Positions 40,642 to 57,763 of a stretch of DNA of 64,000 nucleotides are shown piece by piece. The stretch comes from Streptomyces luomodiensis. Lineage in GTDB: Bacteria > Actinomycetota > Actinomycetes > Streptomycetales > Streptomycetaceae. The notes below the pieces were generated by a model that was given only the letters and a program-made list of their open reading frames with translations, made no database searches and was not told where the DNA came from. The DNA lies in the NCBI RefSeq assembly GCF_031679605.1, contig NZ_CP117522.1:620001-684000 (forward strand), read 5' to 3'. Positions within the stretch are counted from its first letter, which is position 1. Each line of letters opens with the position of its first letter. Made by a program: the position numbers and the translations under genes.

Positions 40642-40649
40642 GCGAGCGC

Positions 40650-41847: not shown

Positions 41848-42402
41848 TCATCGACTGGCTTCCGGTACCGGCGGCGTGGCGTCGAGACGGTGGAACGCGC
41901 GGTTGAAGTAGACCAGGCTCGGCCCGCCGGAGCGGGTGCGGATCTGCTCGATGTCGACGAAGAGCACGCTGTGGGAGCCCATGGGGACGGCGTGCGTGAC
42001 CGTGCCGATGGCGCTCACCAGGGCGTCCTTGAGCACCGGCAGATCGTGCGCGCGGTCCCAGACGTCCCAGGTGAAGCGTTCGGCCATCGGCACCCTGGTG
42101 GCCCCGGCGAAGTGCAGGGCCAGGTCCTGCTGGGCGCCGCCGAGCACATTGACGCAGACCCTTCCGTTGGCCCGGAACACATCGTGCATGGCGCTGCCGC
42201 GGTTGACGCAGACCAGCACGGTCGGCGGATCGTCGGTCACGGAGCAGACCGCGCTGACAGTGATGCCACAGCGTCCCATCGGGCCGTTCGTGGTCAAGAT
42301 GTTGACGGCCGCCGGGAGATGCGCCATCGCCTCCCGGAACTGGGCCTGGTCGGGGGTCACGGCGGGGCCCCTCCTCTCCTGCTTCGGTTCGGTTTCGCTC
42401 AT
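41848..42402 (-). CDS. iacG: Flavin reductase partner of the IacA-type monooxygenase
   Basis: 184 residues of the HpaC/NTAB flavin reductase family, which uses NAD(P)H to make free reduced flavin for a partner oxygenase. Features: FREAMAHLPAAVNILTTNG, the flavin-loop ITVSAVCSVTDDPPTVLVCVN, and the C-terminal HSVLFVDIEQIRTRSGG...LVYFNRAFH. ATG 42402 starts the recognisable protein (frame open to 42486). It is the last gene of the iacA-B-E-G operon, matching IacG, the reductase that supports IacA in IAA hydroxylation. The family is certain; the iac role is inferred from neighbours. Confidence 0.8.
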   Translation of the reverse strand: MSETEPKQERRGPAVTPDQAQFREAMAHLPAAVNILTTNGPMGRCGITVSAVCSVTDDPPTVLVCVNRGSAMHDVFRANGRVCVNVLGGAQQDLALHFAGATRVPMAERFTWDVWDRAHDLPVLKDALVSAIGTVTHAVPMGSHSVLFVDIEQIRTRSGGPSLVYFNRAFHRLDATPPVPEASR

Positions 42403-42433
42403 GTGGCCGTGTCGTTGTCGTCCGGAGGGGACG

Positions 42434-43186
42434 TCAGCGCATGAACAGGCCGCCGTTGGCGTCCCAGCACGCGCCCGTGACCACATCCGCGTGTTCGGCG
42501 GCGAGCAGCACGGCCATGTCGGCGATGAACTCCGGCCGTCCCAACCGCCCTACCGGGACGGCCTGTTCCAGGGCCGCGAGTCTGTCCGGCGGGACGATGT
42601 CGCGGACCGCCGGCAGGTCCTGGGGGCCCGGGGAGATGGCGTTCACCGTCACCCCGTGCGGGGCGAGGTCACGGGCGAACACCTTCGTCAGGGTGGTCAC
42701 TCCCCCCTTGGCCGCCGCGTAGTGCGCACCGGTCGCCGTGCCGCCGTTCTGTCCGGCGAGGGAGGCGATGTTGACGATGCGCCCGTGGCCCCGCCCGGCG
42801 AAGTAGGCGCCGAAGACCTGGCAGCCGAAGAAGGCGCCGTCCAGGTTGGTCGACACCACCTGGTGGAAGCTGTCGGGGCTGATCTCCATCAGCGCTTCGG
42901 CCTTGGCCAGTCCGGCGTTGTTGACCAGCACGTGGACCGCGCCCCAGCGGTCGGCGAGCTGGTCGCGGACGCGGGCGAAGGCGTCCTTGTCGCGCACGTC
43001 CAGGGCGAGTCCGACGGTGGCGCGGCCTTCCGGGTCGAGGGCCGCCGCGGCCTCGGCCGCGGCCTCCTGGTCCAGGTCGGTGAGCGCGACGCGGTAGCCC
43101 CGGTCGTACAGCCGGCCCGCGATGCACGCGCCCAGGCCGCGGGCGGCTCCGGTGACGAGCGCGACCCGCGCGGTCTCCGCGGTCAC
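42434..43186 (-). CDS. iacE: Short-chain dehydrogenase, IacE-like
   Basis: 250 residues. Classical SDR: TGAARGLG cofactor motif near residue 12, NNAG, catalytic Ser in NIASLAGQ and YAAAK, then PGPQDLPA. The start is GTG 43186, overlapping the preceding gene's stop by 4 bp (GTGA). In characterised iac systems the SDR acts with IacA early in indole-ring oxidation. As with most SDRs, substrate cannot be proven from sequence; the assignment rests on gene order. Confidence 0.75.
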   Translation of the reverse strand: MTAETARVALVTGAARGLGACIAGRLYDRGYRVALTDLDQEAAAEAAAALDPEGRATVGLALDVRDKDAFARVRDQLADRWGAVHVLVNNAGLAKAEALMEISPDSFHQVVSTNLDGAFFGCQVFGAYFAGRGHGRIVNIASLAGQNGGTATGAHYAAAKGGVTTLTKVFARDLAPHGVTVNAISPGPQDLPAVRDIVPPDRLAALEQAVPVGRLGRPEFIADMAVLLAAEHADVVTGACWDANGGLFMR

Positions 43187-43551
43187 CGGGCCGCCTCCGG
43201 TTCGGGCAGCGGGCGGCCGATGCGCGCCTCGATCTTCATATAGCGCCACAGGCCGTGCTCGCCGACCTGGACGGTGCGGAAGAGGTCGCAGGCCGCGGCG
43301 ACCGTCGGCTGGTCGACGACGTCGGCGAGGACGTAACAGGTCCAGGGCCAGGAGTCGGAGGGGCCGACCATGTGCCGGTCGTCGTCGACGGTGCCGAGGA
43401 CGGTCACCCCGGGCATGTCGTACAGCTGGGTGAGCATGGACGTGAAGCCGTCCCAGACGGTTGTGCCCTGGCCCGTGGGCAGGTCGAAGAAGTTCTGGTT
43501 GACGCCGACGCAGAACAGCACGCGCAGGGGTGCGCCAGTGGAATCGGGCAT
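43183..43551 (-). CDS. iacB: Small IacB-like protein
   Basis: 122 residues (LRVLFCVGVNQNFFDLP, TVLGTVDDDRHMVGPSDSWPW, HGLWRYMKIEARIGRPL) with a ferredoxin-like dimeric alpha/beta-barrel look and no cofactor motif. Its place directly between the IacA-type oxygenase (16 bp upstream) and the SDR (4-bp overlap) matches iacB, and the related IifD of indole degradation is a cofactor-independent ring-opening oxygenase. A similar ring-cleaving role for an oxidised indole intermediate is plausible but inferred. No close recognition by motif was possible. Confidence 0.6.
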   Translation of the reverse strand: MPDSTGAPLRVLFCVGVNQNFFDLPTGQGTTVWDGFTSMLTQLYDMPGVTVLGTVDDDRHMVGPSDSWPWTCYVLADVVDQPTVAAACDLFRTVQVGEHGLWRYMKIEARIGRPLPEPEAAR

Positions 43552-43567
43552 GGTGGGTTCCTGTCGT

Positions 43568-44731
43568 TCAGAGGTAGCCGGGGAAGGGCTGGACGCCCAT
43601 GAGGACGGCGCCGGCGCCGTCGTACATGCCCTCCTGGAGGAAGGCGTGTTGCGGGACCACCGAGGCGTCGCGCAGATAGCGCTGCATGGGGCCGGCGTCG
43701 GCGATGGCGGCGATGCCACCGAGCTGGTAGGCGGCGCGTACGACCTCGAAGGAGGTCTTCGCGAGGTGGGCGGAGGCGAGCCGCAGCGCACTGGTCTGTC
43801 CGGCACTCGCGGGGTCGCCCGCGACCACGGTGGCCCACACCTCCTCGGTGGCCTCGTAGAAGAAGGCGCGTGCGGACCGGAGCCGGGCCTCGGCCCGCCC
43901 GACCGCGATCCGGTAGGTGGCGCGCTCGGCGGGTTTCGGGGCGCCCGTGTAGCCGGCCCGGCCGCCCTGGGCGATGACGTGGTCGAGCGCGGCCCGCGCC
44001 ACCCCGAGGCCGACGACGGCCAGCACCTGCGCGGCGTAGGGGACGGCCGGGTAGCGGTAGAGCGGTTCGTCGACGGTGGGTTCGCCGCCGCGGACGAACG
44101 TCCACTCCTCGGGGACCACGGCCCCCTCGACCACCAGGTCGTGGCTTCCGGTGCCGCGCATGCCGATGACGTCCCAGTTCTCGGCGATCTCCACCTGACC
44201 GGGCCGCAGCAGGGCGGTGCGCGGCCGGCCGCCGCCGTCCGCACCGTCCTTGATGCCCACGCCGAGGATGTCCGCGCCCTTGCAGCCGCTGGCGAACTTC
44301 CAGCGGCCGCTGACCCGGTGGCCACCGGTGACACGTTCGGCGGGCTGTACCGGGAACAGTCCGGCGGCGAAGACCACATCGGGCCCGTCGGCGTACAGCT
44401 CGGCCTGGGTCTCAAGCGGCAGCGCGGCCAGATAGATCAGCGACGAGCCGAAGCTCGCGACCCAGCCGGCCGATCCGTCCACGGCCGAAATCCGTTCGAT
44501 GAGCCGGAGGAACGCGGCGGGCGGAAGGGCGTCCCCGCCGAATTGTTTGGGTGCGCTCGCCCGGTAGATTCCCGCGCTTTTGAATTCATCGATCACATCC
44601 CGCGGCACATGCCGCTTCTCCTCGAATTCGGCACGCCGCCGGGCGACTACGGCCAGCGCCCGGTCGAACGCCGATCCGGAGGGCGACTGCCCCGCGGCCG
44701 CCGTTTCGGCGGCATCCAGCGTCTGCGTCAT
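43568..44731 (-). CDS. iacA: Acyl-CoA-dehydrogenase-fold flavin monooxygenase, IacA-like
   Basis: 387 residues of the group D two-component monooxygenase family (HpaB C2/HsaA/IacA/IifC). Layout: N-terminal helical domain, central beta domain (GGHRVSGRWKFASGCKGADI, NWDVIGMRGTGSHDLVVEG) and a C-terminal four-helix bundle. The acyl-CoA dehydrogenase catalytic Glu is not evident, as expected for oxygenases. With reduced flavin from the reductase at 41848 it would hydroxylate an aromatic ring. Gene set identity with iac clusters suggests indole-3-acetate. ATG 44731 is chosen; a perfect palindrome lies 100 bp upstream. Confidence 0.8.
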   Translation of the reverse strand: MTQTLDAAETAAAGQSPSGSAFDRALAVVARRRAEFEEKRHVPRDVIDEFKSAGIYRASAPKQFGGDALPPAAFLRLIERISAVDGSAGWVASFGSSLIYLAALPLETQAELYADGPDVVFAAGLFPVQPAERVTGGHRVSGRWKFASGCKGADILGVGIKDGADGGGRPRTALLRPGQVEIAENWDVIGMRGTGSHDLVVEGAVVPEEWTFVRGGEPTVDEPLYRYPAVPYAAQVLAVVGLGVARAALDHVIAQGGRAGYTGAPKPAERATYRIAVGRAEARLRSARAFFYEATEEVWATVVAGDPASAGQTSALRLASAHLAKTSFEVVRAAYQLGGIAAIADAGPMQRYLRDASVVPQHAFLQEGMYDGAGAVLMGVQPFPGYL

Positions 44732-44780
44732 GAGCGATTCTCCTCGCACTGCGAGCGGAACTCCCGCCCGCCTTGCGATC

Positions 44781-44848
44781 ACGCTATGCGCGGCGCCCGA
44801 CCCGCTGCTATTGGGTGTTGGCTGCATCGCGTAGGGGATTTCCCCTAC
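44781..44848 (-). promoter_or_regulatory. iacA promoter region with 18-bp palindrome
   Basis: GTAGGGGATTTCCCCTAC at 44831-44848 (8-bp arms, 2-bp centre) lies 99 bp upstream of the iacA start codon. A -10-like TAGCGT (complement of 44781-44786) lies downstream, placing the palindrome near -65, suitable for an activator such as the response regulator encoded next door. A related site precedes catB. Confidence 0.6.
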
Positions 44849-44875
44849 CCGCGTTCTCGCTTCCGGCCTTTCCGG

Positions 44876-46312
44876 TTACGGGCCGGGAGGGGCCAGCGGC
44901 AGCGCGAAGCGGAAGACCGCGCCGCGCGGCTGGTTGGCCTCGACGTCGATCCGGCCGCCGTGGCGGGTGATGATGCGGTGGCTGAGGGCGAGGCCGATGC
45001 CACTGCCGTTCTCCTTGGAGGTGAAGACACCGTCGAAGAGGCTGTCCTCGCGGGGCGGCCCGTTCCCCCGGTCCCGGACGGCGAGTACGGCGGTCCCCTC
45101 CGCGCCGCGCCGGGTGGTGACCCGCACCGTGCGCTCCTCCTGCGGACGGCCGGCCATCTCGTCCACCGCGTTGAAGGCGAGGTTCATCACGACCTGCCCG
45201 ATGAGCACGTTCTCGCAGCGCACCGGCAGCGGTTCGGCGGTGAGGTCGAACTCGACGGCCACCGCGTGTTCCTGGGCGCGCAGCTCGATGAAGTACGCAC
45301 AGTCGCGCACGATCGCGTTGAGGTCGGTCAGCTGCTCGGACTGCTCCAGGCGGCCGACGTAGCCGCGCAGGCTGGCCAGGATCCGCCGGGCCCGCTCGAT
45401 CTGCCGGGCCGCGTTGTCCAGCCCCCAGGCCACCGCCTGGTCACCGCTGCCGAGCCGGCCGCGGGCTCCTTCGACGAAGTTGTACGCGGCGGCGAGCGGC
45501 TGGCTCACCTCGTGGGCGATCGCCATCGCCATGTCGCCCATGGCGTTGTTGCGGGCCAGGTGGTTCAGGCGCTGGGTGTCGCGGCGGTGCTCCTCCTCGG
45601 TGCGCACCCGGTCGGTGATGTCGTAGAAGAGCAGCATCCGGCCCTGTAGATCGCTCTCGATCTCGATGTACTGGCAGGTCGCGGCGTACCAGCGGGGCTC
45701 GCCGCCGGGTGCGGCGAACCGGTAGCGGCCCTCGCGGTCGGGGACCGGCCCGCCGCAGCAGTAGCCGGTGAAGTCCGCCCCGTGGATGCCGCCGCCGAGC
45801 AGCCTGGCCGCGGACTCGCTGGCGAAGACCACACGGTTCGCGTCGTCGAGGACGACGATCCCCTCGGCCAGACCGCTCAGAAAGGCGCGCAGCCTGCTCT
45901 CGGTGCGGAACAGATCGCGTCGCACCGCCTTCTCCTCGGCGATGTCCCGGAACTGGACCAGCACCACCGCTCGCGTGGGCAGGGCGACGCGGATCGCGAT
46001 GGCCTCGGTGAGGATCTCCTCACCGCTCTTGGACCGATAGCACCACTCGGTGGCGCTGATGCCGTGCTCCACCGCGTGGCCGAGCCAGCGGTGTCCGAGT
46101 TCGCGGCTGTACTGGAGGGCGTTCTTGCTCATGTCCGGCGCCTTGAGGGGCCGGAGCTCGTCGACCGTCCAGCCGAGCAGTTCGCAGGCCGCCCGGTTGG
46201 CCCAGAGGATGTCGTAGGTGCGGGCGTCGTGCAGCAGGACGCAGTACTTCAGACCCTGCATCAGGGTGCGGAAGTCGGACGGTGCGAGCCGGCTCGCGGT
46301 GGTGTCCCTCAT
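44876..46312 (-). CDS. Cytoplasmic PAS-PAS sensor histidine kinase
   Basis: 478 residues with no membrane segment. PAS1 (about 15-125; YDILWANRAACELLGW), PAS2 (about 140-235; GIVVLDDANRVVFAS), HisKA with phosphoacceptor His267 in AIAHEVSQPLAAAYN, and HATPase_c (NLAFNAVDEM, FTSKENGSGIGLALS). The HExxQPL H-box is the FixL/StyS/TodS type. The start overlaps the response regulator stop by 4 bp (ATGA). A soluble PAS kinase inside an aromatic locus probably senses the substrate or an intermediate directly, as TodS and StyS do. Confidence 0.88.
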   Translation of the reverse strand: MRDTTASRLAPSDFRTLMQGLKYCVLLHDARTYDILWANRAACELLGWTVDELRPLKAPDMSKNALQYSRELGHRWLGHAVEHGISATEWCYRSKSGEEILTEAIAIRVALPTRAVVLVQFRDIAEEKAVRRDLFRTESRLRAFLSGLAEGIVVLDDANRVVFASESAARLLGGGIHGADFTGYCCGGPVPDREGRYRFAAPGGEPRWYAATCQYIEIESDLQGRMLLFYDITDRVRTEEEHRRDTQRLNHLARNNAMGDMAMAIAHEVSQPLAAAYNFVEGARGRLGSGDQAVAWGLDNAARQIERARRILASLRGYVGRLEQSEQLTDLNAIVRDCAYFIELRAQEHAVAVEFDLTAEPLPVRCENVLIGQVVMNLAFNAVDEMAGRPQEERTVRVTTRRGAEGTAVLAVRDRGNGPPREDSLFDGVFTSKENGSGIGLALSHRIITRHGGRIDVEANQPRGAVFRFALPLAPPGP

Positions 46313-46926
46313 CGGTCCGCCGAGGGCCGCAGCCCCAGTCGGAGGATGTCGTGCACCAGCGTGGCGATGCTCTCGGCACCGGTCTTCTCCCGGATGCGCG
46401 CGCGATGCACATCGACGGTCTTGGCGCTGATGCCGAGCCGGGTCGCGATGCGTTTGTTCGGCGCGCCGTCGACGGACAGCGCGAGCACTTCCCGTTCACG
46501 GGCGGTCAGGCGGTTCAGGCTGGTGCGCAACGCGCGCTGTCCCGCGGCCCGCTCGAAGCGTTCCCGGGCGGTGCGCCGCGCGGCCTGTACGACGTCGAGC
46601 ATGTGCTGGGGGTCGTACGGCTTCTCCAGGAAGTCGACGGCGCCGTTCTTGAGGGCGCGTACCGACATCCGGATGTCACCGTGGGCCGAGACGAAGACGA
46701 CGGGCAGGGGCGCGCCGGTCTCGTTCAGCAGCTGCTGTACGTCGAATCCGCTGAGCTCGGGCATGCGGACGTCGAGGACCAGACAGGCGGGCTGGTCACG
46801 GTCGTAAGCGCGCAGGAAGTCGCGGGCGTCCCGGAAGCGCTCCGAGCGGATGCCGACCGACTCCAGCAGCCAGGCGAGGGATTCGCTCAGCTCCTCGTCG
46901 TCGTCCAGGATGTAGACGAGGCTCAT
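46309..46926 (-). CDS. FixJ/NarL-type response regulator
   Basis: 205 residues. Receiver domain with acidic pocket DDD (8-10), phospho-acceptor Asp52 in VLDVRMPE, and Lys102 in LEKPYD; LuxR-type helix-turn-helix at about 139-185 (LTAREREVLALSVDGAPNKRIATRL split over the linker). The closest functional analogues are StyR, TodT and FixJ. It is the likely activator of the iac and cat promoters, which share GTAGGG...CCCC(A)TAC palindromes. It is first in a two-gene operon with the kinase. Confidence 0.9.
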   Translation of the reverse strand: MSLVYILDDDEELSESLAWLLESVGIRSERFRDARDFLRAYDRDQPACLVLDVRMPELSGFDVQQLLNETGAPLPVVFVSAHGDIRMSVRALKNGAVDFLEKPYDPQHMLDVVQAARRTARERFERAAGQRALRTSLNRLTAREREVLALSVDGAPNKRIATRLGISAKTVDVHRARIREKTGAESIATLVHDILRLGLRPSADR

Positions 46927-46974
46927 CTCAGCCGCCCCGCCGGCGCGTCCGGTCCGGTCCCGGGGTACGGAAGG

Positions 46975-47142: not shown

Positions 47143-47178
47143 GGGGCGGCCGAGGTGCCCGCGATCCGGCCGGTGGTC

Positions 47179-47988
47179 TCATAGGCCGCGCCCGGCCGCA
47201 CCGAGGTGGGCGGTCAGGGCCGCCCCGACGGCATCGGGTTCCTCCACCGCGAGATGGCCGGTGGCGACCGTCTTCAGGGTGGCTCCGGGAATTCCCTCGG
47301 CGAGTTCCCGCGCGTGGTCGAGGGGGGTGGCGAGGTCGTGGACGCCGCCGAGCACCAGCGTGGGAGCGCCGATCCGCGCCAGCTCGCCGCGCAGGTCGTA
47401 GCGTGCCAGGGCATCGCAGCACGCCGCGTAGCCGGCCGGGTCGGTGGTGGCGAGGTCGCGCAGCAGCTCCTTCCCCACGGGGGTCTCGGCCGTCGCGGGG
47501 TCGGCGAACCAGCGGCCCGGCATGGCCGTGAGCAACGCGCCGGTCCCCGCGCGCCGCACCAGGGCCGCGCGCTCGTACCAGGGGCCTGGCGCCCCGAAGT
47601 GGGCGGAGGAGCAGACCAGCGTCAGCGAGGCGACCCGTTCCGGGTGGCGGACGGCGAGCTGGGCCCCGATGGCACCGCCCAGTGAGATGCCCGCGTAGTG
47701 GAACCGGTCCCGGCCGTGGTGGTCGACGAGATCGAGCACCGAGGACGCCAGGTCCTCGACCGTGGTACGGCCGGGGCCCGGTGTGCCCGGCGCCGGTCCG
47801 CCGGACGGATGGCCCGGCGGACCGCCGTGACCGGGCAGGTCGTAGCGCAGCACCCGGTAGTGGCCGGCGAGGGCGGTGGCATGCGGTTCCCACACCGCCG
47901 TCCGTGTGCCCAGGGACGGCCCCAGGACGAGCAACGGCGCCTCGGCCGGGCCGTCGATCCGGTGGTGGAGCGGAGGGCGGGGCGTCAC
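47179..47988 (-). CDS. catD: 3-oxoadipate enol-lactonase (alpha/beta hydrolase)
   Basis: 269 residues. Alpha/beta hydrolase with nucleophile elbow AGISLGGAIG, acid in VLGGVHDLATP and His in VATGHLAVEEP. LRYDLPGHGGP near residue 45 is the PcaD/CatD signature. It hydrolyses the beta-ketoadipate enol-lactone formed by CatC. GTG 47988 overlaps the catC stop by 4 bp. The open frame upstream is antisense to catC and not used. No pcaIJ/pcaF genes are present here, so beta-ketoadipate must be finished elsewhere in the genome. Confidence 0.87.
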   Translation of the reverse strand: MTPRPPLHHRIDGPAEAPLLVLGPSLGTRTAVWEPHATALAGHYRVLRYDLPGHGGPPGHPSGGPAPGTPGPGRTTVEDLASSVLDLVDHHGRDRFHYAGISLGGAIGAQLAVRHPERVASLTLVCSSAHFGAPGPWYERAALVRRAGTGALLTAMPGRWFADPATAETPVGKELLRDLATTDPAGYAACCDALARYDLRGELARIGAPTLVLGGVHDLATPLDHARELAEGIPGATLKTVATGHLAVEEPDAVGAALTAHLGAAGRGL

Positions 47989-48278
47989 GCGGCCTCGCCG
48001 GCCGCCAGGTCGGACGGGTGCTGCGCCAGCGGGGTGACGTCGATCTTCATATACGGGAAGAGCGGCAGACTCCACAGAACGCGGTGCAGCGCCTCGTTGT
48101 CGGCCACGTCGAAGACGCTGATGTTGGCGTACTGCCCGACGCACCGCCAGATGTGCACCCACTCCCCCGACCTTTGCAGTTCCTGGCAGTAGGCCTTCTC
48201 ACGGGCCACCAGGTCCGCGCGGACCTCGGGGTCGAGATCGCGCGGGATGTCAACGTCCATGCGTACCGCGAACAACAC
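47985..48278 (-). CDS. catC: Muconolactone delta-isomerase
   Basis: 97 residues, the usual size of this decameric ferredoxin-fold enzyme. Signature stretches: MLFAVRMDVDIPRDLDPEV, GEWVHIWRCVGQYANISVFD and LPLFPYMKIDVTPL. It isomerises muconolactone to the enol-lactone in the catechol branch of the beta-ketoadipate pathway. GTG 48278 lies 6 bp after catA, with the next gene overlapping, so catB-A-C-D form one operon. Confidence 0.93.
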   Translation of the reverse strand: MLFAVRMDVDIPRDLDPEVRADLVAREKAYCQELQRSGEWVHIWRCVGQYANISVFDVADNEALHRVLWSLPLFPYMKIDVTPLAQHPSDLAAGEAA

Positions 48279-48284
48279 CGGGCA

Positions 48285-49151
48285 TCACGCCTTGTCGAGG
48301 ATGAAGTCGTGACGGACCTGGTGGCCGTTGCCGTCCGCCGCCGGGCCCGGGTCGAGGATGAGCTCGGGCTTCACGGCCTGGGCGATGTCGTCCTCGACGT
48401 GCCGGCCGCCCCGGAAGTACAGCTGGGTCGTGATGAGCTGGTGTCCGGGCGCCGACACCTTCAGATGGAGGTGTGCGGGACGCCAGGCGTGCCAGCCCGC
48501 GGCCTCGATGAGCGAGCCGCAGGCGCCGTCCGTGGGGATCTGGTAGGGCGCGGGCTCAATGGTGTGGATCGCGAAGTTGCCCTGGTCGTCGGCGACGACC
48601 GCGCCGCGCAGGTTCCACTCGGGCAGGCCCGGCGCGAACTGCGAGTAGTAGCCGTCGTCGTCGGCGTGCCACATCTCGATCAGGGCGCCCGCCAGCGGGG
48701 TGCCGTCCACGGAGCTGACCTGGCCGTGGAAGAGCAGCGGGGTGCCCGCTTCGTTCTCCCGCATGGGCAGGGTCGCCTCGGCGGGCAGGCGGGGCGCGCC
48801 GGGGATGTAGTACGGGCCCTCGATGGTGCCCTTGCTGCCCTCGCGGTTCTCGTTCGCCACTTCCTCCACGACGTGCTCGACCCACACATCGAGGAAGAGC
48901 GGCCACTCGCCGTCCTCGCCGACCCGGATCAGCCATGCCTTGAGCGCGTCGTACTCGGCGTAGGTCAGCTTGTGGCGCCGGATGATGTCATGCGTGGCGG
49001 CGAGCAGCTCGGACACCAGGGTGTCCACCCGCCGGGTGTCGACGTCGGCGGTGCCGGTCCGCTGCTTGCTGCGGAACTGCTCGGTGGCGGCGGCTCCGGA
49101 CGCGGCCGCGGTGGCCTGCTCGGCGGGCCGGTCCGGGATGGTCTCGGTCAT
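48285..49151 (-). CDS. catA: Catechol 1,2-dioxygenase
   Basis: 288 residues of the intradiol dioxygenase family. The N-terminal helical dimerisation domain (about 35-100) is followed by the catalytic beta-sandwich with Fe(III) ligands: Tyr in EGPYYIPGAP, a second Tyr in DDGYYSQF, and the two His in RPAHLHLKVSA. It opens catechol to cis,cis-muconate. A ~30-residue Ala-rich N-terminal extension precedes the domain. The presence of catA with catB and catC shows that the upstream enzymes of this locus deliver catechol. Confidence 0.94.
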   Translation of the reverse strand: MTETIPDRPAEQATAAASGAAATEQFRSKQRTGTADVDTRRVDTLVSELLAATHDIIRRHKLTYAEYDALKAWLIRVGEDGEWPLFLDVWVEHVVEEVANENREGSKGTIEGPYYIPGAPRLPAEATLPMRENEAGTPLLFHGQVSSVDGTPLAGALIEMWHADDDGYYSQFAPGLPEWNLRGAVVADDQGNFAIHTIEPAPYQIPTDGACGSLIEAAGWHAWRPAHLHLKVSAPGHQLITTQLYFRGGRHVEDDIAQAVKPELILDPGPAADGNGHQVRHDFILDKA

Positions 49152-49203
49152 GGTCTCGTCCCTTGTGTCGTGGTGCGTGCGTGGTGCACTTCTGGTGCGC
49201 GGA

Positions 49204-50437: not shown

Positions 50438-50472
50438 ATACCAGGTTGGGGCGTATTCAGACGCCACCGATA

Positions 50473-51807
50473 TCAATGCCGACTTTCAATGCCGCCGTTG
50501 TCCGTGCCCTCGTTGTCCGTACCGGCGCGGGCGGCCTTTTCGATGGCGTGGCCGAGCGCGAACAGCCGGTCGAGCCGCTCCGGGTGTCCGATGAGCTGTA
50601 GGCCCAGGGGCAGGCCCGCGCCGTTCCGGTGACCCGGTACGGTCAGCGCCGGCAGTCCCAGGAGCTGCCACGGCCGGCTGAGGACGGGGGATCCGGTGGC
50701 GGCCAGTCCGCTCGGGGCGGGCCCGAGAGCGGCCGGGCCGAGCACGGCGTCCACGTCGCCGAGCAGGGCCAGCATCGCGGCACGCTCCCGTTCGGCGACG
50801 GACAGCGCCCGGCGGTAGTCGGTGGCCGCGATGGAGCGGCCCCGCGCCAGCAGCTCGTTCAGCGGTGTGCTCAGCCGGTCCGGGTGCGCGGCCTCCGCGG
50901 CCAGCGACCGGGCGGCCTCGTACGCCATGACGGTGATGTGCGCGTCCACCAGCCGGGGTGTCCGCTCGGTCCAGTCGAGCTCCACGAGTCTCGCGCCACC
51001 GGCCACGGCGTCCTCGACGGTCCGGGCCAGAGCCGCTCGCATGTCCGCCGCCACCTCGCCCAGTTCGGTGCCCGGCCACACGGCCAGCGTGGGGCGCGCG
51101 GGCGGTGCGACGGGGCCGGGCAGCCGGTCCGCGCCGGTCAGTGCCGCATGGGCCAGCCGCAGGTCGGCGACGGTCGGGGTGAGCAGCCCCGCGGCGTCCA
51201 GGGTGGCGGACAAGCCGGTGAACCCGGTGGTCTCAAGGGGTCCTCCGACGGGTGCCACGAACCCCGCGACCCCGCAGTAGGCGGCGGGCCGGGTCAGCGA
51301 TCCGGCGGTCTGGCTGCCGAGGGCGAGGGGCACCACGCCCGCCGCCACCGCCGCGGCGGAGCCGCTGGAGGAACCGCCGGGGGTGTGCCCGAGGTGGTGC
51401 GGATTCCTGGTGGGGCCGGGGGCGAAGTAGGCGAACTCGGTGGTGACCGTCTTGCCCAGGGGCACGGCGCCGAGCCGCCGGAGCCGGTCGACCAGTACGG
51501 CGTCCGATCCGGCCACGCGTCCCCGGCGCAGGGGCGATCCGCATTCGGTCGGCAGGCCGCGGACGTCGATGATGTCCTTGACCCCGAACGGAATACCCCG
51601 CAGCGGGCCGGCCGCCGGTGCGGTGTCCAGCCGCCGGGCGGCACCCTGTGCCCCGTCCCGGTCGACCCGTACCCAGGCCCGGATACCGGGTTCCGCGGCG
51701 TCGAGGCGTTCCAGCGCGCCACCGATCACCTCGCTGGGGCTCAGTTCGCCCGCGGCCACCCGCGCCACCAGGGCGGACAGGGTGGTCTCGGGCCGTGCTG
51801 ACGGCAT
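50473..51807 (-). CDS. iacH: Amidase, IacH-like
   Basis: About 444 residues of the amidase signature family with the Ser-Ser-Lys triad: Lys in FGVKDIIDV, cis-Ser in TPGGSSSGSAAA and the nucleophile Ser in TAGSLTRPAAYCG. In proteobacterial iac clusters the amidase IacH is an integral member, and no other amide step exists in simple catechol pathways, so its presence is a strong pointer to IAA. The start is uncertain: ATG 51807 or GTG 51861 (GGGGAG 6 bp upstream, 22 bp after the reductase stop). The 165-bp gap to catB holds the next promoter. Confidence 0.82.
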   Translation of the reverse strand: MPSARPETTLSALVARVAAGELSPSEVIGGALERLDAAEPGIRAWVRVDRDGAQGAARRLDTAPAAGPLRGIPFGVKDIIDVRGLPTECGSPLRRGRVAGSDAVLVDRLRRLGAVPLGKTVTTEFAYFAPGPTRNPHHLGHTPGGSSSGSAAAVAAGVVPLALGSQTAGSLTRPAAYCGVAGFVAPVGGPLETTGFTGLSATLDAAGLLTPTVADLRLAHAALTGADRLPGPVAPPARPTLAVWPGTELGEVAADMRAALARTVEDAVAGGARLVELDWTERTPRLVDAHITVMAYEAARSLAAEAAHPDRLSTPLNELLARGRSIAATDYRRALSVAERERAAMLALLGDVDAVLGPAALGPAPSGLAATGSPVLSRPWQLLGLPALTVPGHRNGAGLPLGLQLIGHPERLDRLFALGHAIEKAARAGTDNEGTDNGGIESRH

Positions 51808-51882
51808 GAGGGTTTCTCTCCTTCCGGTCCGGGCGGGGGCCGGTCCGTCGGACTCCGCCACTCGCGACTCCCCAGGGCGGGG

Positions 51883-52830
51883 CTACAGCTCCAGCACCAG
51901 GCGGGGCGTCCTGGCGCGGGACACACACGTGGCGATCTGGTCGCCCGCTGCCTTCTCCTTGCGGGTCAGGCAGTTGTCCCGGTGTTCGGGGACGCCGTCG
52001 AGCACCGGGAGCACACAGGTGCCGCAGATGCCCTCGCGGCATGAGGTGTCGACCTCGATACCGCCCTCCGCCAGCACCTCGACGATGCTGCGGCCGGGCG
52101 GGACGCGGAACACCTCACCGGTGTCCAGCTCCACTTCGAACTCCTCGCCGGCGTCGGCCGTCGGCTCCAGCGGCTGGAAGTGTTCGACGTGGACGTGGTC
52201 CTCCGGCAGCGCGCGGGTCGCCACGTCGACGACACGGTGCATGAACTCCTTGGGACCGCAGGTGTAGACGTGCGTCCCGGTGTCCGCGTCCGCCAGCGCC
52301 GCGGCCAGCACCTCGGGCTGCTCACTCCTGCCGACCCCGAAGTGGAAGGTGACGTCGGCGGCGAAGTCGGCGTTCTCCAGCAGCGGTACGAACGCCGCCT
52401 GCTGCCGGTCGGTGGCGAAGTAGTGCAACCGGAACGGGCTGCCGGTGTGGTGCAGTGCGTACGCCATGCTGAGCAGCGGGGTGATCCCGATGCCCGCGGC
52501 GACCAGCACATGCCGGGCCGCCGCCGGATCGAGGGCGAAGAGGTTGCGCGGTTCGCCGATGGTGAGTTGGTGCCCCACCCGGACCTGGTCGTGCAACGCG
52601 GCGGAGCCGCCCCGGGAGCACTCCTCCCGCTTGACCGCTATCACATAGGAGCCGGTTTCACCGGGCGGGCCGCACAGCGAGTACTGCCGGGTGATCCCGC
52701 TCGGGCCCAGCACATCGACATGGGCCCCCGCCTCGTACGGTGCGAACGGGCGGCCGTCGCTGCGGCACAGCCGGAAGCACTTCACCGCGGCGGTTTCGGC
52801 CGTGATCTCACTGACCGTGACTGTGATCAT
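51883..52830 (-). CDS. iacF: Dioxygenase reductase (PDR type), IacF-like
   Basis: 315 residues. Phthalate-dioxygenase-reductase layout: FMN domain (RQYSLCGPP), NAD domain (LVAAGIGITPLLSMAYAL, YTCGPKEFMH) and a C-terminal plant-type 2Fe-2S domain with CREGICGTC and a distal Cys in HRDNCLT. It carries electrons from NADH to the Rieske centre of the oxygenase encoded just upstream (12 bp after the beta subunit gene). It corresponds to IacF. Confidence 0.88.
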   Translation of the reverse strand: MITVTVSEITAETAAVKCFRLCRSDGRPFAPYEAGAHVDVLGPSGITRQYSLCGPPGETGSYVIAVKREECSRGGSAALHDQVRVGHQLTIGEPRNLFALDPAAARHVLVAAGIGITPLLSMAYALHHTGSPFRLHYFATDRQQAAFVPLLENADFAADVTFHFGVGRSEQPEVLAAALADADTGTHVYTCGPKEFMHRVVDVATRALPEDHVHVEHFQPLEPTADAGEEFEVELDTGEVFRVPPGRSIVEVLAEGGIEVDTSCREGICGTCVLPVLDGVPEHRDNCLTRKEKAAGDQIATCVSRARTPRLVLEL

Positions 52831-52842
52831 CGCGCGCCCCGG

Positions 52843-53340
52843 CTACAGCAGGAAACCGGACGCGTTGACGGCGCCGTCGGAGTTGATCAGCCGGATGACC
52901 TTCTCCTCGATCAGCGGTCCGGCACCGTCCAGCCGGATCCGGTGTGTCACATCCGCGCCGAGGACGAAGGTCTCCTCCCGCCGGTGGCCCACCAGCACCT
53001 GTGCCGAGCCCAGCTCGACGACCGCATCGTCGCGATGCCGGACCACGAACCGGGACAGGGTGCGCACGGTACGCGCCGCCGCGACGGCCGAGATCGAGTA
53101 ACCGGAGGTCAGCCGCTCGATGCGCATCCGGCGCATCCGGTCGTCGTCGTAGACCATGTTCAGCGTGGCGGCGAAGTCCTTGGTCTGCGGATCGATGGGG
53201 ATCACATACCGGCCGCCGGGAGCCCACAGCCGGTCCCACTCCTGGTACTCCTTGCGGTCCAGCAAGTCGGCCTCGTGCCAGACCAGTTCGATCGCCGAGG
53301 CGATCCTAGGGTCCGCCAGGAGTGCGGTGTCAGCGGCCAT
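52843..53340 (-). CDS. iacD: Ring-hydroxylating dioxygenase beta subunit, IacD-like
   Basis: 165 residues, SnoaL/NTF2-like structural subunit of Rieske oxygenases: LVWHEADLLDRKEYQEWDRLW, RYVIPIDPQ, RMRIERLTSGYS and VRTLSRFVV. It has no catalytic metal; it stabilises an alpha3beta3 assembly. The start ATG 53340 overlaps the end of the alpha gene by 11 bp, ensuring paired synthesis. Confidence 0.88.
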   Translation of the reverse strand: MAADTALLADPRIASAIELVWHEADLLDRKEYQEWDRLWAPGGRYVIPIDPQTKDFAATLNMVYDDDRMRRMRIERLTSGYSISAVAAARTVRTLSRFVVRHRDDAVVELGSAQVLVGHRREETFVLGADVTHRIRLDGAGPLIEEKVIRLINSDGAVNASGFLL

Positions 53341-54613
53341 CGGTCATCATCGCCTTCCACATCGCGTATGCCTCGCGCATTCCGGTCTCGTCGGTGGCGT
53401 GCGAGACGCGTCCGTCGCCTTCGTGCCGTTCCCGGGGCAGCCCGCGGTTCACCATGATCGGAAGTCCGGGGCCGGCCGTGGCCCCGCGCTGCACCCGGTC
53501 CCATGCCTCGGAGTCGTCGGGGCTGCCGAACCCGAACGGGCCCTGGAAGTGTTCATGGATCCGCAGCCGCTCCCGGTTCACGATCTCGGGTCCGCCGTCC
53601 AGGCCCAGCGCCATGTGCCGGATCTCGGTCTCGGTCACCGAGACCGGGCGCAGCACGCGGAAGAACGACATGGACATCGCCACGTTCGGGAACAGGTTCA
53701 GATTGAATCCCGCGCCATGCAGGGACCGCACGATGCGCCGTACCTTCTCCGGTGCGAACTCCCGCGACAGCTCCTCGACGATATGGCCGAAGCGCTCCTG
53801 CAACTGCTCGGTGCCGTCGTCCTGGTCGAGGTCGACGTGCTCGGGCACCATCACCATGACGCTGTGCCCGTTGCCGAGCGCGTGCGTGACCGCCTTCTCG
53901 TCGGTCATGAACGACAGCATCTCCGCGGTCTCCGCGTCCACCGAGGACATCCAGGACCGGTGCACGATCGGGAAGTGGTAGCCGTCGGTGGTGTTCTCCA
54001 GCTGGATCTTCCAGTTGCCCTTGAACCGGAAGGTGTGCTCGCCCTGCACCTTGATCGGATAGCCGGCGCCCTGCTTCATGAACAGGTCCATCCAGTGCCT
54101 GGCCGGCCCGAGGAAGTCGGCCAGCGGCTGCACCTCGTGGTCGAAGCTCGCGAAGACCATTCCCGCGTAGCTGTCGACCTTCAGCCGGTGCAGCGGGAAG
54201 TCCTTCTTCTCCAGGTCGTCCCCGTAACCGTCCGGGTAGGGGATGCCGCGCAGCTTCCCGTCCAGCGCGTAGGACCACGCGTGGTAGGGGCAGGTGAACC
54301 CGTTCGCATGGCCCCGGGGGGCCTCGCAGACGCTGGCGCCGCGGTGGCGGCAGCGGTTCAGCAGGACGTTGATCCCGCCACGGCGATCGCGTGTCACGAT
54401 CACCGGCTGCCGGCCGACCATGGCCGTCTTGAAGTCCCCGGCGTTCGGGACCTCGCTCTCATGGGCCACCCACACCCAGGTGCGGTTGAAGATGCGGTCC
54501 ATCTCCAGCTCGAACAGGTGCGGGTCGGTGTAGAGGGACACGTCCACCCGGTCGTCCTGGACCAGGGTGGCGATGTCGGTACCGGTGGGACCGGTGGGGG
54601 TGGGTGCGTTCAT
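53330..54613 (-). CDS. iacC: Ring-hydroxylating dioxygenase alpha subunit, IacC-like
   Basis: 427 residues. Rieske 2Fe-2S domain with C88-R-H90 and C108-P-Y-H111 ligands; the mononuclear-iron site is in ENTTDGYHFPIVH (Asp210 bridging, His213 and His218 ligands). It belongs to the benzoate/anthranilate-type oxygenases and in iac systems IacC/D/F are needed to reach catechol. ATG 54613 is chosen: a 23-codon reading frame ends with TGA overlapping it by ATGA, and MGHAG from ATG 54628 would be the alternative start. Confidence 0.88.
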   Translation of the reverse strand: MNAPTPTGPTGTDIATLVQDDRVDVSLYTDPHLFELEMDRIFNRTWVWVAHESEVPNAGDFKTAMVGRQPVIVTRDRRGGINVLLNRCRHRGASVCEAPRGHANGFTCPYHAWSYALDGKLRGIPYPDGYGDDLEKKDFPLHRLKVDSYAGMVFASFDHEVQPLADFLGPARHWMDLFMKQGAGYPIKVQGEHTFRFKGNWKIQLENTTDGYHFPIVHRSWMSSVDAETAEMLSFMTDEKAVTHALGNGHSVMVMVPEHVDLDQDDGTEQLQERFGHIVEELSREFAPEKVRRIVRSLHGAGFNLNLFPNVAMSMSFFRVLRPVSVTETEIRHMALGLDGGPEIVNRERLRIHEHFQGPFGFGSPDDSEAWDRVQRGATAGPGLPIMVNRGLPRERHEGDGRVSHATDETGMREAYAMWKAMMTDGR

Positions 54614-54681
54614 TCCGGCATGTCCCATGCTTTCTCGGGGTCGTTCCCTTGGCTTTTTTGGAGTCGTTCCATTGGCTTCAT
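54610..54681 (-). CDS. Possible 23-residue leader peptide before the dioxygenase gene
   Basis: ATG 54681 opens a short frame MKPMERLQKSQGNDPEKAWD... that ends with TGA overlapping the iacC ATG (ATGA). It lies within the 23-bp tandem repeats, so it could be a chance product of them. If translated it would couple ribosomes onto iacC. No homologue recognised and no strong ribosome site. Confidence 0.25.
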   Translation of the reverse strand: MKPMERLQKSQGNDPEKAWDMPE

Positions 54682-54702
54682 CGGGTTCGTTCCATCGCGT
54701 TC
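54641..54702. repeat. Three tandem 23-bp repeats between operon genes
   Basis: Units starting TCGTTCC at 54641, 54664 and 54687 with exactly 23-bp period; consensus about TCGTTCC(A/C)TTGGCTT, the third copy decaying after TCGTTCCAT. They start directly after the stop of the small gene (minus strand) and run to the dioxygenase alpha leader. AT-richer than surroundings. Confidence 0.75.
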
Positions 54703-54970
54703 AGCCGTCCCATTCGGCGGCGGCCGTCCAGTAGTCGCTGCCGTCGGCCCGGATGCCGTGTCGCCACTCGGTGGTTCTGCGCAGGTCGGGCTCGACGGCC
54801 GCACAGGCGGCGTCCGCGCCGTCCGGGCCCTCCTCGGCGGCCGGCCAGTGCACCCAGTTGACTTCCCTGCCGTCGCGGTCGTGCAGGAACAGATCCACGT
54901 GGTGCCAGCCGTAGTCGCGGATGTCCCGGTAGCAGGTGAGCAGCATCGTCCGGCCGTCGGGTGCGGTCAT
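54701..54970 (-). CDS. Small conserved-looking protein of the iac-like operon
   Basis: 89 residues (MLLTCYRDIRDYGWHHVDLFL, EVNWVHWPAAEEGPDG, DYWTAAAEWDG), rich in Trp, Asp and His, with no signal peptide or known motif that I recognise. ATG 54970 overlaps the upstream gene's stop by ATGA, so it is clearly translated within the operon. It sits just before the Rieske alpha gene. It could correspond to the uncharacterised IacI-type accessory protein or be actinobacterium-specific. Function unknown. Confidence 0.6.
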   Translation of the reverse strand: MTAPDGRTMLLTCYRDIRDYGWHHVDLFLHDRDGREVNWVHWPAAEEGPDGADAACAAVEPDLRRTTEWRHGIRADGSDYWTAAAEWDG

Positions 54971-55455
54971 CGCGGCGCCTCCTGGAGCAGGTCCGACGCG
55001 GACGGGCCCAGGCCGGCGTCGAAGAGCCGCTCGGTGCGGAAGTGGCGGATCCGGGCACCGTCCGCCGCGACGCGGAAGGTCACATCCAGCCTCGCCACGA
55101 TGAGTTCGGCCGCGCCGGACTCGTACCGGGACACCTGCTGCATCAGCCATCTCCCCCGGACCTCGTCGCCCTCGACATGGGTGGTGCCGGGGTGGAGCAG
55201 ATGGGCGTTCGCCCGGAAGTGCGGGTTGGGGCGCAGATAGGCGGCGAGCATCGCCGCGATGGCCGCCGGCCCGGTGGTCCGGCCGAACTTCTCGGTGTAG
55301 AGCGGCCCGACACCTTCCCATACGGCATCCGGGGTGAACAGGTCCGCCAGTGTGCCGGAGGCGTCCGGCGACCGGGGGACGTCGCACAGCTCCAGGTAGC
55401 GGGTCAGCGCCTGGTGCGCCAGGTGCTCGGGCGATGCGGCACTGGTCGAGGGCAT
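54967..55455 (-). CDS. SnoaL/NTF2-fold protein of the iac-like operon
   Basis: 162 residues with the SnoaL_4/NTF2 pattern (ALTRYLELCD, LADLFTPDAVWEGVGPLY, FRANAHLLHPGTTHVEGDEVRGRWLMQQVSRYESG). Such folds act as isomerases, cyclases, dehydratases or structural oxygenase subunits. It resembles ring-hydroxylase beta subunits in fold but has different motifs from the true beta at 52843. It may act on an unstable oxidised indole intermediate; IacI or the IifA-type proteins are possible counterparts. Overlaps the 89-residue protein gene by 4 bp. Confidence 0.65.
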   Translation of the reverse strand: MPSTSAASPEHLAHQALTRYLELCDVPRSPDASGTLADLFTPDAVWEGVGPLYTEKFGRTTGPAAIAAMLAAYLRPNPHFRANAHLLHPGTTHVEGDEVRGRWLMQQVSRYESGAAELIVARLDVTFRVAADGARIRHFRTERLFDAGLGPSASDLLQEAPR

Positions 55456-55469
55456 GCGTGATCGGTCCT

Positions 55470-55529
55470 CCTTGCTACGGGTGCGGGGGGTGCCTTGCCA
55501 CGGGGTGCGGGGGCTGCCTTGCTACGCGG
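55470..55529. repeat. 2.5 copies of a 23-24-bp tandem repeat
   Basis: Units starting CCTTGC at 55470, 55493 and 55517 (CCTTGCTACGGGTGCGGGGG and variants) fill the spacer between the importer stop and the SnoaL-type gene. The period is nearly the same as that of the 54641 repeats, in another junction of the same operon, but the sequence is different. Confidence 0.7.
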
Positions 55530-56876
55530 TCAGCTCCGCAGGCTTCCGGCCACGGCCTCGGCTTCGTCTCGTGTCTCGCGGTCGTCGATCGCCTTGGCGC
55601 GGGTCTCCGGAGCGGCGGCCACCGCGATGACGGTGACCACGCCCATGCCGACCAGGAACAGGGCGATCGGCCAGGACGCCCCGGCCCAGGCGAGCAGCGC
55701 GGTGGCGATGATGGGGGAGAAACCGCCCGCGACCATCGAGGCCAGCTCGTGCCCGAGGGCGACCCCGCTGTAGCGCACCCGGCTGTCGAAGAGCTCGGTG
55801 AAGAACGCGGGCTGGGTGCCGATCATCGCTCCGTGACAGCACACGACCGCCACGAGCACCGCGACGAAGATCAGTACCGGGTCGCGTGAGTCGAACATCG
55901 CGAAGAACGGATACGCCCACACGATCATCCCGATGGCGCCGCCCAGGTAGACCGGGCGGCGTCCGACCCGGTCGGAGAGCGCCCCGAACATCGGCATGGC
56001 GAACGACTCGACCAGCATCCCCACCACGACCGCGCTGAGCACGAGATCGCCGTCCAGCCCGATCTTCGCGGCGTAGGAGAGGCTGAAGGTGAGGAAGACG
56101 TACATCGCGCCGTTCTCGGCGATGCGCGCGCCGAAGGTGATCAGCACCGGCTTGGGGTGGGTGCGGATGACCTCGAGCACCGGCAGCTTGGTCTGCTCCG
56201 GGGCGGGTTTCTTCGAGGCCGTCCGCCGGTACGCGGGGGTTTCCATGACCCGCAGCCGGATCAGCAGTCCCACCACGGTGAGCAGGATGCCGACGACGAA
56301 CGGGATCCGCCATCCCCACGCCAGGAAGGAGTCGTCGGTGGTCACCGCCTTGACCAGCGAATAGACCGACGCGGAGAGCACGAATCCCAGGCCCACTCCG
56401 GTCTGGCTCCAGGCCGAGTAGAAGCCGCGGCGACGGTCCGGCGCGTGTTCGCTCACGATCAGCACACCGCCGCCCCACTCGCCGCCGACGGCGATGCCCT
56501 GCACCACGCGCAGGGTCACCAGCAGCGCCGGCGCCCACAAGCCGATGGCCTGGTACGTGGGCAGTACGCCGATGAGGAAGGTGGCGACGCCCATGATCAT
56601 CAGGGTGATCACAAGGATCGACTTGCGGCCGATCCGGTCACCGAAGTGTCCGAAGATCACGCCGCCCAGTGGCCTGGCGAGGAAGCCCGCCGCGTTGGTG
56701 CCGAAGGCGGCGATGGTGCCCACCAGCGGGTCGAAGGTGGGGAAGAACAGGGTGTTGAACACGAGCGCGGCCGCCGTGCCGTAGAGAAAGAAGTCGTACC
56801 ACTCCAGGGCACTGCCGACCAGACTTGCGATCGCCGCCTTACGCACCTCGCGCGGGGCACGATTCGTTGCTGCCAT
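55530..56876 (-). CDS. MHS-family MFS importer (aromatic acid or auxin uptake candidate)
   Basis: 448 residues, 12 membrane helices. Metabolite:H+ symporter signature: ASLVGSALEWYDFFLYGTAA at the N-terminus, GHFGDRIGRKS loop 2-3 and RVVQGIAVGGEWGGG in TM4. Relatives import shikimate, alpha-ketoglutarate, dicarboxylates or aromatic acids. As first gene of the operon leading into the Rieske and amidase genes it probably brings in the pathway substrate. ATG 56876 has GGAGG 6 bp upstream. A perfect 19-bp palindrome lies about 100 bp upstream. Confidence 0.87.
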   Translation of the reverse strand: MAATNRAPREVRKAAIASLVGSALEWYDFFLYGTAAALVFNTLFFPTFDPLVGTIAAFGTNAAGFLARPLGGVIFGHFGDRIGRKSILVITLMIMGVATFLIGVLPTYQAIGLWAPALLVTLRVVQGIAVGGEWGGGVLIVSEHAPDRRRGFYSAWSQTGVGLGFVLSASVYSLVKAVTTDDSFLAWGWRIPFVVGILLTVVGLLIRLRVMETPAYRRTASKKPAPEQTKLPVLEVIRTHPKPVLITFGARIAENGAMYVFLTFSLSYAAKIGLDGDLVLSAVVVGMLVESFAMPMFGALSDRVGRRPVYLGGAIGMIVWAYPFFAMFDSRDPVLIFVAVLVAVVCCHGAMIGTQPAFFTELFDSRVRYSGVALGHELASMVAGGFSPIIATALLAWAGASWPIALFLVGMGVVTVIAVAAAPETRAKAIDDRETRDEAEAVAGSLRS

Positions 56877-56971
56877 ATTGGCCCTCCATCGGCCGCTCTG
56901 CATGAGATCGCGGACTGCGGCTCAGCTGTTCACGCATTGTTCGCGGCGGCTTCGGCGGAGGGAATGCCGTT

Positions 56972-56990
56972 GGTCCGGTCACCGGACCAC
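56972..56990. promoter_or_regulatory. Perfect 19-bp palindrome, IclR operator candidate
   Basis: TGGTCCGGTCACCGGACCA: 9-bp arms around a central C, between the end of the iclR gene (57005) and the importer start (56876). The position, about 96 bp from the start codon, fits control of the importer operon by the IclR protein. It could alternatively act as a hairpin after iclR, but the one-base centre is better suited to a dimer site. Confidence 0.6.
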
Positions 56991-57004
56991 ACGATGTGCC
57001 GTGC

Positions 57005-57763
57005 TCAGGTGTTCACCCCCTCGACATCGCGGGTCAGCGCCCGGCCGGCCGCTGTCACCATGGGCGCCACCCGGCGCACGTCCATGCGATCGACGGGTCC
57101 CACCACGGTCAGCGTCGCCACCGCGACGCCCTGGGCGAACACGGGCGCGGCGACCGCTCCGTAGCCGACGACCAGCTCCTGGCGGTCGATGGCATAGCCC
57201 TGCCGGCGCACCTCCTCGATCTCGGCCCGCAGCCGGGACGGGTCGGTGATGGTCCACGGGGTACGGCGGCGCAGCGGTGCGCGCATGATGCTCTCGCGCG
57301 TCGACTCGTCGCCGAAGGCCAGCAGTGCCTTGCCGGACGCTCCGCAGTGGAACGGCACCCGGCCTTCCACGTGGGTGACCGCCACGCCTCCCCCGCGCTG
57401 GCTGAAATACTTCTCGACGAAGAGGACGTGATGGTCTCCGGGGAAGGCGAGCACCACGGTCTCCCGGGTGCTGATGGCCAGGTCTTCCAGGTACCGGGCG
57501 GCGATCAGCCGCAACCCCCTGGTCCGGGGCACGCGCTGGCCCAGCTGGAAGAGGAGCGCGCCCAGCTCGTAGCGGCGGTCCCGCCGGTTCAGCAGCCCCA
57601 CGCCGACCATGTCGGTGGCCACGCGGTGCACCGTGGTCTTCGCCAGCGCGGTGCGCCGGGCCAATTCCGACAGACCGAGCACCGGTGCCCCGGTGTCGAA
57701 GGCGTCCAGAATGAGCCGCACCTTGCGCAGCAGGGAGTCGCCCTCCGGTTCGACAGCCACCAT
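57005..57763 (-). CDS. IclR-family transcriptional regulator
   Basis: 252 residues. N-terminal winged helix (LGLSELARRTALAKTTVHRVATDM) and C-terminal IclR effector domain (VPFHCGASGKALLAF, EEVRRQGYAIDRQELVVGYGAVAAPVF). IclR proteins such as PcaU, PobR, CatR-type and MhpR commonly control aromatic catabolism and bind pathway metabolites. It lies at the upstream edge of the iac-like locus in the same direction. The likely operator is the palindrome at 56972. Confidence 0.9.
   Translation of the reverse strand: MVAVEPEGDSLLRKVRLILDAFDTGAPVLGLSELARRTALAKTTVHRVATDMVGVGLLNRRDRRYELGALLFQLGQRVPRTRGLRLIAARYLEDLAISTRETVVLAFPGDHHVLFVEKYFSQRGGGVAVTHVEGRVPFHCGASGKALLAFGDESTRESIMRAPLRRRTPWTITDPSRLRAEIEEVRRQGYAIDRQELVVGYGAVAAPVFAQGVAVATLTVVGPVDRMDVRRVAPMVTAAGRALTRDVEGVNT

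Follow-up and report, generated by a model that had tools for sequence, protein, structure and literature searches.

Gene content and organization of the locus

The stretch of DNA analyzed in this study (the window) is a 64,000 nucleotide region of Streptomyces luomodiensis, positions 620001-684000 of a host chromosome assembled as a single contig of 10.04 Mb (NZ_CP117522.1). It contains at 41848-57763 a set of 18 genes, all on the minus strand and none with internal stops, that very probably constitutes a complete actinobacterial iac locus converting indole-3-acetate (IAA) to catechol and then to 3-oxoadipate, with its genes arranged in two modules under separate regulators (Table 1). The gene order from upstream to downstream is IclR-MHS-iacI-u89-iacCDFH-catBACD, termed the lower module, followed by RR-HK-iacABEG, termed the upper module, in which RR and HK represent a response regulator and a histidine kinase. 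The intergenic gaps are 101, 74, 72, 165, 252, and 144 bp, and all other neighbours are at most 52 bp apart or overlap. The gaps of 72-252 bp make about four to five transcription units plausible.

Protein families were assigned by Pfam and NCBIfam profile scans. A first-pass annotation, made from the sequence alone, had named these families, placed the genes on one strand, and proposed a complete iac-like locus. The scans agree with it: orthologues of the nine iac proteins (IacA-IacI, IacH being a putative one) are encoded in an order collinear with iac loci, together with CatBAC and an enol-lactonase, and genes for the ortho-cleavage of catechol are thereby linked to the iac genes. The two small accessory genes of that annotation are iacI and u89, and its amidase gene is present. 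Its IacB-like small protein matches no Pfam model, yet it matches four plasmid records annotated as 'IacB protein' at 51-57% identity. IacC contains the Rieske ligand residues C93, H95, C113, and H116 and the motif D215xxHxxxxH. The inferred GTG start of catD is placed at the overlap with catC.

The regulator of the lower module belongs to the IclR family instead of the MarR family, as the same annotation had suggested, and no MarR gene is found among the proteins scanned at 37403-62057. This regulator scores 121.8 bits with TIGR02431, which is under the cut-off of that model, and has matches of 72% (58% covered) in S. himastatinicus (L030) and 81% in a Rhodococcus metagenome bin (L031). The permease gene likewise stands as annotated, and import is its candidate role. 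Its score is slightly under the TIGR00883 cut-off of 443.45, and it is 45-48% identical to the permeases of two iac stretches (L086 and L098).

Table 1. Genes and candidate operator of the locus, with positions in the window
Feature	Position	Strand	Evidence
IclR-family regulator, PcaR/PcaU-like, first gene of lower module	57005..57763	-	PF01614/PF09339
MHS-type MFS permease, candidate IAA/dioxindole-3-acetate (DOAA) importer, IacT-like by position	55530..56903	-	TIGR00883 438.9 bits
IacI, SnoaL/NTF2-like	54967..55455	-	PF13577; 33-76% across iac stretches
u89, 89-aa protein	54701..54970	-	no Pfam match; predicted local distance difference test (pLDDT) of model 89.6
IacC, Rieske oxygenase alpha	53330..54628	-	PF00355/PF00848; 60-88% across 86 stretches
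IacD, Rieske oxygenase beta	52843..53340	-	PF00866; 42-81% across iac stretches
IacF, PDR/VanB-type reductase	51883..52830	-	PF00111 + NAD-binding; 39-82%
IacH, amidase-signature protein, actinobacterial type	50473..51861	-	PF01425; VKD + GGSSSG motifs
CatB, muconate cycloisomerase	49204..50307	-	PF13378/PF02746; TIGR02534 under cut-off
CatA, catechol 1,2-dioxygenase	48285..49151	-	TIGR02438 474.3 bits vs cut-off 404.4
CatC, muconolactone isomerase	47985..48278	-	PF02426 143.8 bits
CatD/PcaD, 3-oxoadipate enol-lactonase	47179..47988	-	TIGR02427 228.8 bits, cut-off 255.85
RR, FixJ/LuxR-type response regulator	46309..46926	-	PF00072 + PF00196; Asp motif
HK, PAS histidine kinase, IacS-like	44876..46312	-	PF13188/PF02518; H, N, G boxes
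Palindrome TAGGGG(N4)CCCCTA, candidate RR operator	44832..44847	.	101 bp before iacA
IacA, group D flavin monooxygenase (acyl-CoA-dehydrogenase fold)	43568..44731	-	PF08028
IacB	43183..43551	-	no Pfam match; plasmid-record homologues
IacE, SDR; inferred GTG start overlaps iacB	42434..43186	-	PF13561; TGxxxGxG + YxxxK
IacG, flavin reductase; inferred start	41848..42402	-	PF01613; HpaC-like, under that cut-off

Orthology to iac loci

An alignment scan of genome contigs for IacC gave at least 533 confirmed relatives. The best 80 of these and six plasmid stretches constitute a comparison set of 86 iac stretches (56 proteobacterial and 30 actinobacterial), in which all window proteins were scored. 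Homologues of iacA-iacI cluster in nearly all of the stretches that are long enough to contain them. The identities to the locus of Pseudomonas sp. Root71 (L066) are 62% for IacA, 60% for IacB, 78% for IacC, 54% for IacD, 63% for IacE, 55% for IacF, 64% for IacG, 31% for IacH, 43% for IacI, 50% for HK, and 57% for RR. Thus, ten of the eleven proteins are 43-78% identical, with IacH as the exception. An excerpt of PMC11630574 describes Root71_Pseudomonas, which we equate with L066 by strain name only, as the strain used for RNA-seq; in that study IAA induces an iac-like operon, and its Pseudomonas strains consume IAA.

The identity of IacA is 71-90% in other Streptomyces loci, except for a second locus of one genome (49%), and 46-68% in iac loci outside Streptomyces, and it drops to 31% for the nearest paralogue within the same genome. 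IacE is 47-86% identical in the iacA-holding stretches in which it is found. The best-scoring non-iac Rieske alpha protein in 199 Streptomyces genomes is 35% identical to IacC over 403 residues, with shorter alignments reaching 44%. The iacC and iacD genes are adjacent, and their products are placed in the Iac clade by the gaps in identity and score, the tree having taken in iac loci only. The first-pass annotation had raised the possibility that the oxygenases fall within clades for other substrates; the distances of IacA and IacC from their nearest paralogues (31% and 35%) argue against this possibility. Orthologues in iac loci, together with the steep drop in identity outside them, indicate that the locus is an actinobacterial iac locus.

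Similar genes are found in plasmid records. A tblastn search with IacC finds matches in Streptomyces NBC_00564 (79%), Cupriavidus P-10 (78%), and Klebsiella (62%), with IacB nearby. IacB matches 28 plasmid records, at 83.6% in Streptomyces NBC_00564 and at 40.7-62.6% in the other 27. Another genome of the same species as the window (G745) contains this locus at 96-100% and a second, divergent iac locus (L158, G745:C1:7416001-7435000), in which IacC, IacA, and u89 are 66%, 49%, and 62% identical to those of the window. A second IacC is not detected in the genome of the window at 1e-60. Eight Streptomyces genomes (L140-L147; also L151-L154) contain an IacB-like gene (43-53%) beside a gene for an IacE-like SDR (41-46%). 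These pairs have no other iac genes within the stretch seen, and their neighbours vary among the three genomes inspected.

Separation of the upper and lower modules

The two modules are adjacent in the window, and are separated by about 8 Mb in S. himastatinicus (G180), in which the upper set is located at 1.3 Mb and the lower set at 9.55 Mb. When 392 Streptomyces genomes were searched for IacB, matches were obtained in 20 of them (12 strong and 8 weak), nine of which also contain IacC at 1e-60. The upper module is found without the lower module in three of the 392 genomes (G150, G769, and G757), all belonging to the 12 with strong matches. In these three genomes, IacC is not detected at 1e-60, IacI is not detected at 1e-5, u89 is not detected, and amidases are at most 42% identical. 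One of them (G769) is a single contig with 100% completeness. All three keep RR, HK, IacA, IacB, IacE, and IacG at 79-95% identity over 86-100% of the window proteins. The GAPDH-like gene flanking the locus in the window is also found close to the upper module of G150 (by Pfam) and of G757 (by tblastn). IacB is present in all nine u89-bearing genomes, and therefore the upper module is seen alone and the lower module is not in these 392 genomes.

This partition fits the biochemistry, because IacA and IacE together are enough for conversion of IAA to DOAA in E. coli, according to an excerpt of PMC7225977. The split organization noted in the first-pass annotation is seen. It was overstated as a peculiarity, because the iac genes of LB400 and PsJN are also split: in LB400, iacA and iacG are located on a different chromosome from the remaining iac genes, and PsJN is reportedly alike (PMC11676955, in the part available). 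As a separate observation, in the Rhodococcus metagenome bin, the stretch seen of one contig (L031) has iac genes of the lower module only (IacC 88% identical to that of the window). Another contig of this bin (L036) contains a full locus, and the bin may be mixed.

Two-component system and candidate operator

A two-component system is present, as annotated. It does not represent a departure from proteobacterial iac loci as had been proposed, because HK matches are found in 48 of the 56 proteobacterial stretches, including those of Pseudomonas, Herbaspirillum, and Cupriavidus; they are also found in 24 of the 30 actinobacterial stretches. In iac loci outside Streptomyces, HK is 44-59% and RR is 54-66% identical, with RR at 54-58% in the proteobacterial stretches. 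A LuxR-type regulator and IacS are described for Pseudomonas and PsJN iac loci in an excerpt of PMC11630574.

A palindrome, TAGGGGNNNNCCCCTA, is located upstream of iacA and occurs once in the window, in which 0.02 matches are expected for an exact 16-mer with up to three mismatches. The gapped palindrome has 18 matches in 2.34 Mb of sequence, in which the stretches partly overlap, represent about 11 distinct loci, and were mostly picked for their iac genes. All 18 matches are upstream of iacA, 7-104 bp from its start, whether the locus is full, split, or upper-only. It is not found before the lower module. The palindrome is a concrete candidate for the binding site of the two-component system, which probably acts there to activate the upper module. 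The IclR regulator probably controls the lower module, and the lack of the palindrome before this module is in keeping with such separate control.

In Proteobacteria, a half-site with at most one mismatch from TAGGGGATT is present within 350 bp before iacA in 44 of 52 loci. An imperfect palindrome, CTAGGGGATTTCTTTAG, is the consensus of the 17-mers around this half-site. Of 81 upstream stretches, 32 contain the exact half-site AATCCCCTA, as compared with 0.53 expected. The homology between the Streptomyces and proteobacterial forms of the site is only suggestive, because a matrix trained on the proteobacterial sites fails to single out the site of the window.

u89 and the amidase

The u89 protein is found in 25 of the 30 actinobacterial and none of the 56 proteobacterial iac stretches. 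In a set of 396 genomes sampled evenly across the phylum, only the genome of the window itself encodes it, and it is encoded in nine of the 392 Streptomyces genomes. Within the 20 genomes with an IacB match, it is present in exactly those bearing IacC (9/9 versus 0/11; p ~6e-6 if the genomes are assumed to be independent, which they are not). The u89 gene adjoins iacI in some loci and iacH in others. An alignment of 22 u89 sequences contains 31 invariant positions. No Pfam model matches u89, and a structural search with its confident model (pLDDT 89.6) gave no convincing match. IacH is 48-80% identical in the actinobacterial stretches and 29-34% in the proteobacterial stretches when at least 60% of the protein is aligned. 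Thus, u89 and the actinobacterial type of IacH go together, because both split along the line between these two phyla in the iac stretches.

Comparison with known auxin loci

The Pseudomonas loci with a two-component system (Root71, and PsJN with LuxR/IacS) share with the window homologues of iacABCDEFGHI, a FixJ/LuxR-type regulator, a PAS kinase, and a site with a related half-site before iacA. They differ from it in that IacH is only about 30% identical and neither u89 nor an IclR match is found, while in the window the lower module is set apart from iacABEG. The MarR-regulated loci (P. putida 1290 and A. baumannii) share the iacA-iacI set, and IacA-IacF of the window show 39-62% identity to the A. 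baumannii and Klebsiella records. The two-component system is unmatched in two such stretches (L027 and L028), whereas the window lacks MarR among the scanned proteins. One of these stretches (L027) comes from a record labelled Klebsiella pneumoniae: insertion sequences lie close to its iac cluster, which has MarR and an IacB annotation and is carried by a conjugative IncF plasmid.

The plasmid locus of Streptomyces NBC_00564 (L024) resembles the window in nine iac proteins (61-84%), u89 (68%), RR (79%), and catBAC. However, its genes form a single ABCDEFGH-catBAC run, with IacI, u89, and RR encoded at a distance beside a dipeptide-type ABC importer, and this stretch has no match to the IclR regulator or the MHS permease of the window. 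An orthologous dipeptide/nickel-type ABC importer is encoded in three loci (L024:1368-6514, L149:12687-17879, and L150:11547-16651; ATPase 76-87%, binding protein 49-73%), in each of which it adjoins the iac two-component system or the upper module. It is a candidate importer of auxin or auxin conjugates.

The iad loci of Variovorax and Achromobacter contain Rieske alpha and beta, SDR, and reductase genes homologous to iacCDEF (PMC9613470, in excerpt). Unlike the window, which contains iacA, iacB, iacI, and cat genes, the Variovorax locus lacks iacA, and the iad route ends at anthranilate. Auxin loci in Actinobacteria are already in print (PMC9613470), and the points worth following beyond them are how the modules separate, the u89 protein, and the candidate operator.

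Proposed pathway and alternative explanations

In the proposed pathway, the MHS permease would import IAA or DOAA. IacA with IacG would oxidize IAA to 2-oxo-IAA, and IacE, perhaps aided by IacB, would convert this intermediate to DOAA. The Rieske system IacCDF, IacH, IacI, and u89 would convert DOAA to catechol, for which CatABCD would provide a complete route to 3-oxoadipate. The two-component system would switch on the upper module through the palindrome, and the IclR regulator would govern the lower module. The reactions of IacA and IacE are taken over by analogy from published work on other bacteria, and we infer the substrate in this host, the regulation, the transport, and the roles of IacB and u89 from sequence. 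IAA or a close indole relative, the substrate suggested in the first-pass annotation, is supported by the presence of the orthologues in iac loci. PMC7225977 points to a gap in the knowledge of IAA breakdown between DOAA and catechol and regards the part played by IacB as unclear. The natural module split sorts the unassigned genes in these Streptomyces, grouping IacB with IacA, IacE, and IacG, and IacI, IacC, IacD, IacF, IacH, and u89 together, and u89 is a new candidate for this gap in Actinobacteria.

Several points weigh against the assignment of a complete IAA pathway with two modules. The amidase step may differ from the proteobacterial one, because IacH is so distant from its proteobacterial counterparts. 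Because other 3-substituted indoles are also substrates of IacA and IacE (PMC7225977), a compound related to IAA could be the natural substrate. No IAA growth or induction data for any Streptomyces were found in the literature searched, and the regulatory roles are proposed from motif position alone. The gene after iacB in the 12 genomes with strong IacB matches is iacE in eight and iacC in four, and neither layout is general. Of ten Streptomyces stretches compared in gene order, all chosen via IacC, nine have a compact ABCDEFGH run, which suggests that the split form is derived from the compact order. In LB400 and PsJN, iacB and iacE are grouped with iacCDFHI and not with iacAG (PMC11676955, as far as the excerpt goes), which speaks against a universal ABEG unit. 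Finally, upper-only genomes are rare (3/392).

It is possible, if still short of probable, that the upper module is a free-standing auxin-disarming module in Streptomyces, which inactivates IAA by turning it into DOAA but draws no nutrition from it, and that DOAA is consumed by the separate lower module, equipped with u89 and with a regulator and an importer of its own. If so, different strains could share the work, streptomycetes could shift plant auxin levels without carbon gain, and upper-only strains could separate auxin disarming from consumption. Alternatively, the modules may be functionally meaningless and the upper-only genomes decaying remnants of full loci, as their rarity and the commonness of compact loci would allow. 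This explanation is unlikely, although not negligible: all three genomes retain the six upper proteins and the palindrome in place, and the missing genes are precisely those for the later steps.

A reading in which the pathway derives from iac but acts on a different 3-substituted indole, such as indole-3-propionate, indole-3-butyrate, an auxin conjugate, or an indole antibiotic, is more doubtful still. In its favour, the C. glathei enzymes IacA and IacE turn over both indole-3-propionic and indole-3-butyric acid (PMC7225977). The IacH type differs by phylum, u89 is only actinobacterial in the stretches seen, and the dipeptide-type ABC importer beside iac genes in three related loci could mean amino-acid conjugates. 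However, the core proteins other than IacH are close to those of the Root71 locus (43-78%), and the genes scanned in the window include the MHS permease but no ABC importer. There is almost no likelihood that the locus is instead a Rieske cluster of the anthranilate, salicylate, or benzoate type with unrelated genes beside it by chance, because, although the top NCBIfam models are AntA/BenA-type for IacC and HcaF/BenB-type for IacD, the scores are far under cut-off (222 versus 671.9 bits for AntA), IacC is much closer to iac loci (60-88%) than to the best-scoring other Streptomyces Rieske alpha protein (35%), and clusters of that kind are not known to encode IacA, IacB, or IacI.

Neighbouring genes

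The locus adjoins a GAPDH-like gene (57936-59390, minus strand), which encodes a 484-aa protein whose NAD-binding domain is preceded by some 130 residues. A 577-aa open reading frame on the plus strand (57825-59558) is antisense to this gene. Genes for a GH43 protein (arabinanase-like, 40560-41774, plus strand) and a GH95 protein (59592-62057, plus strand) flank the locus, suggesting a possible plant-polysaccharide neighbourhood.

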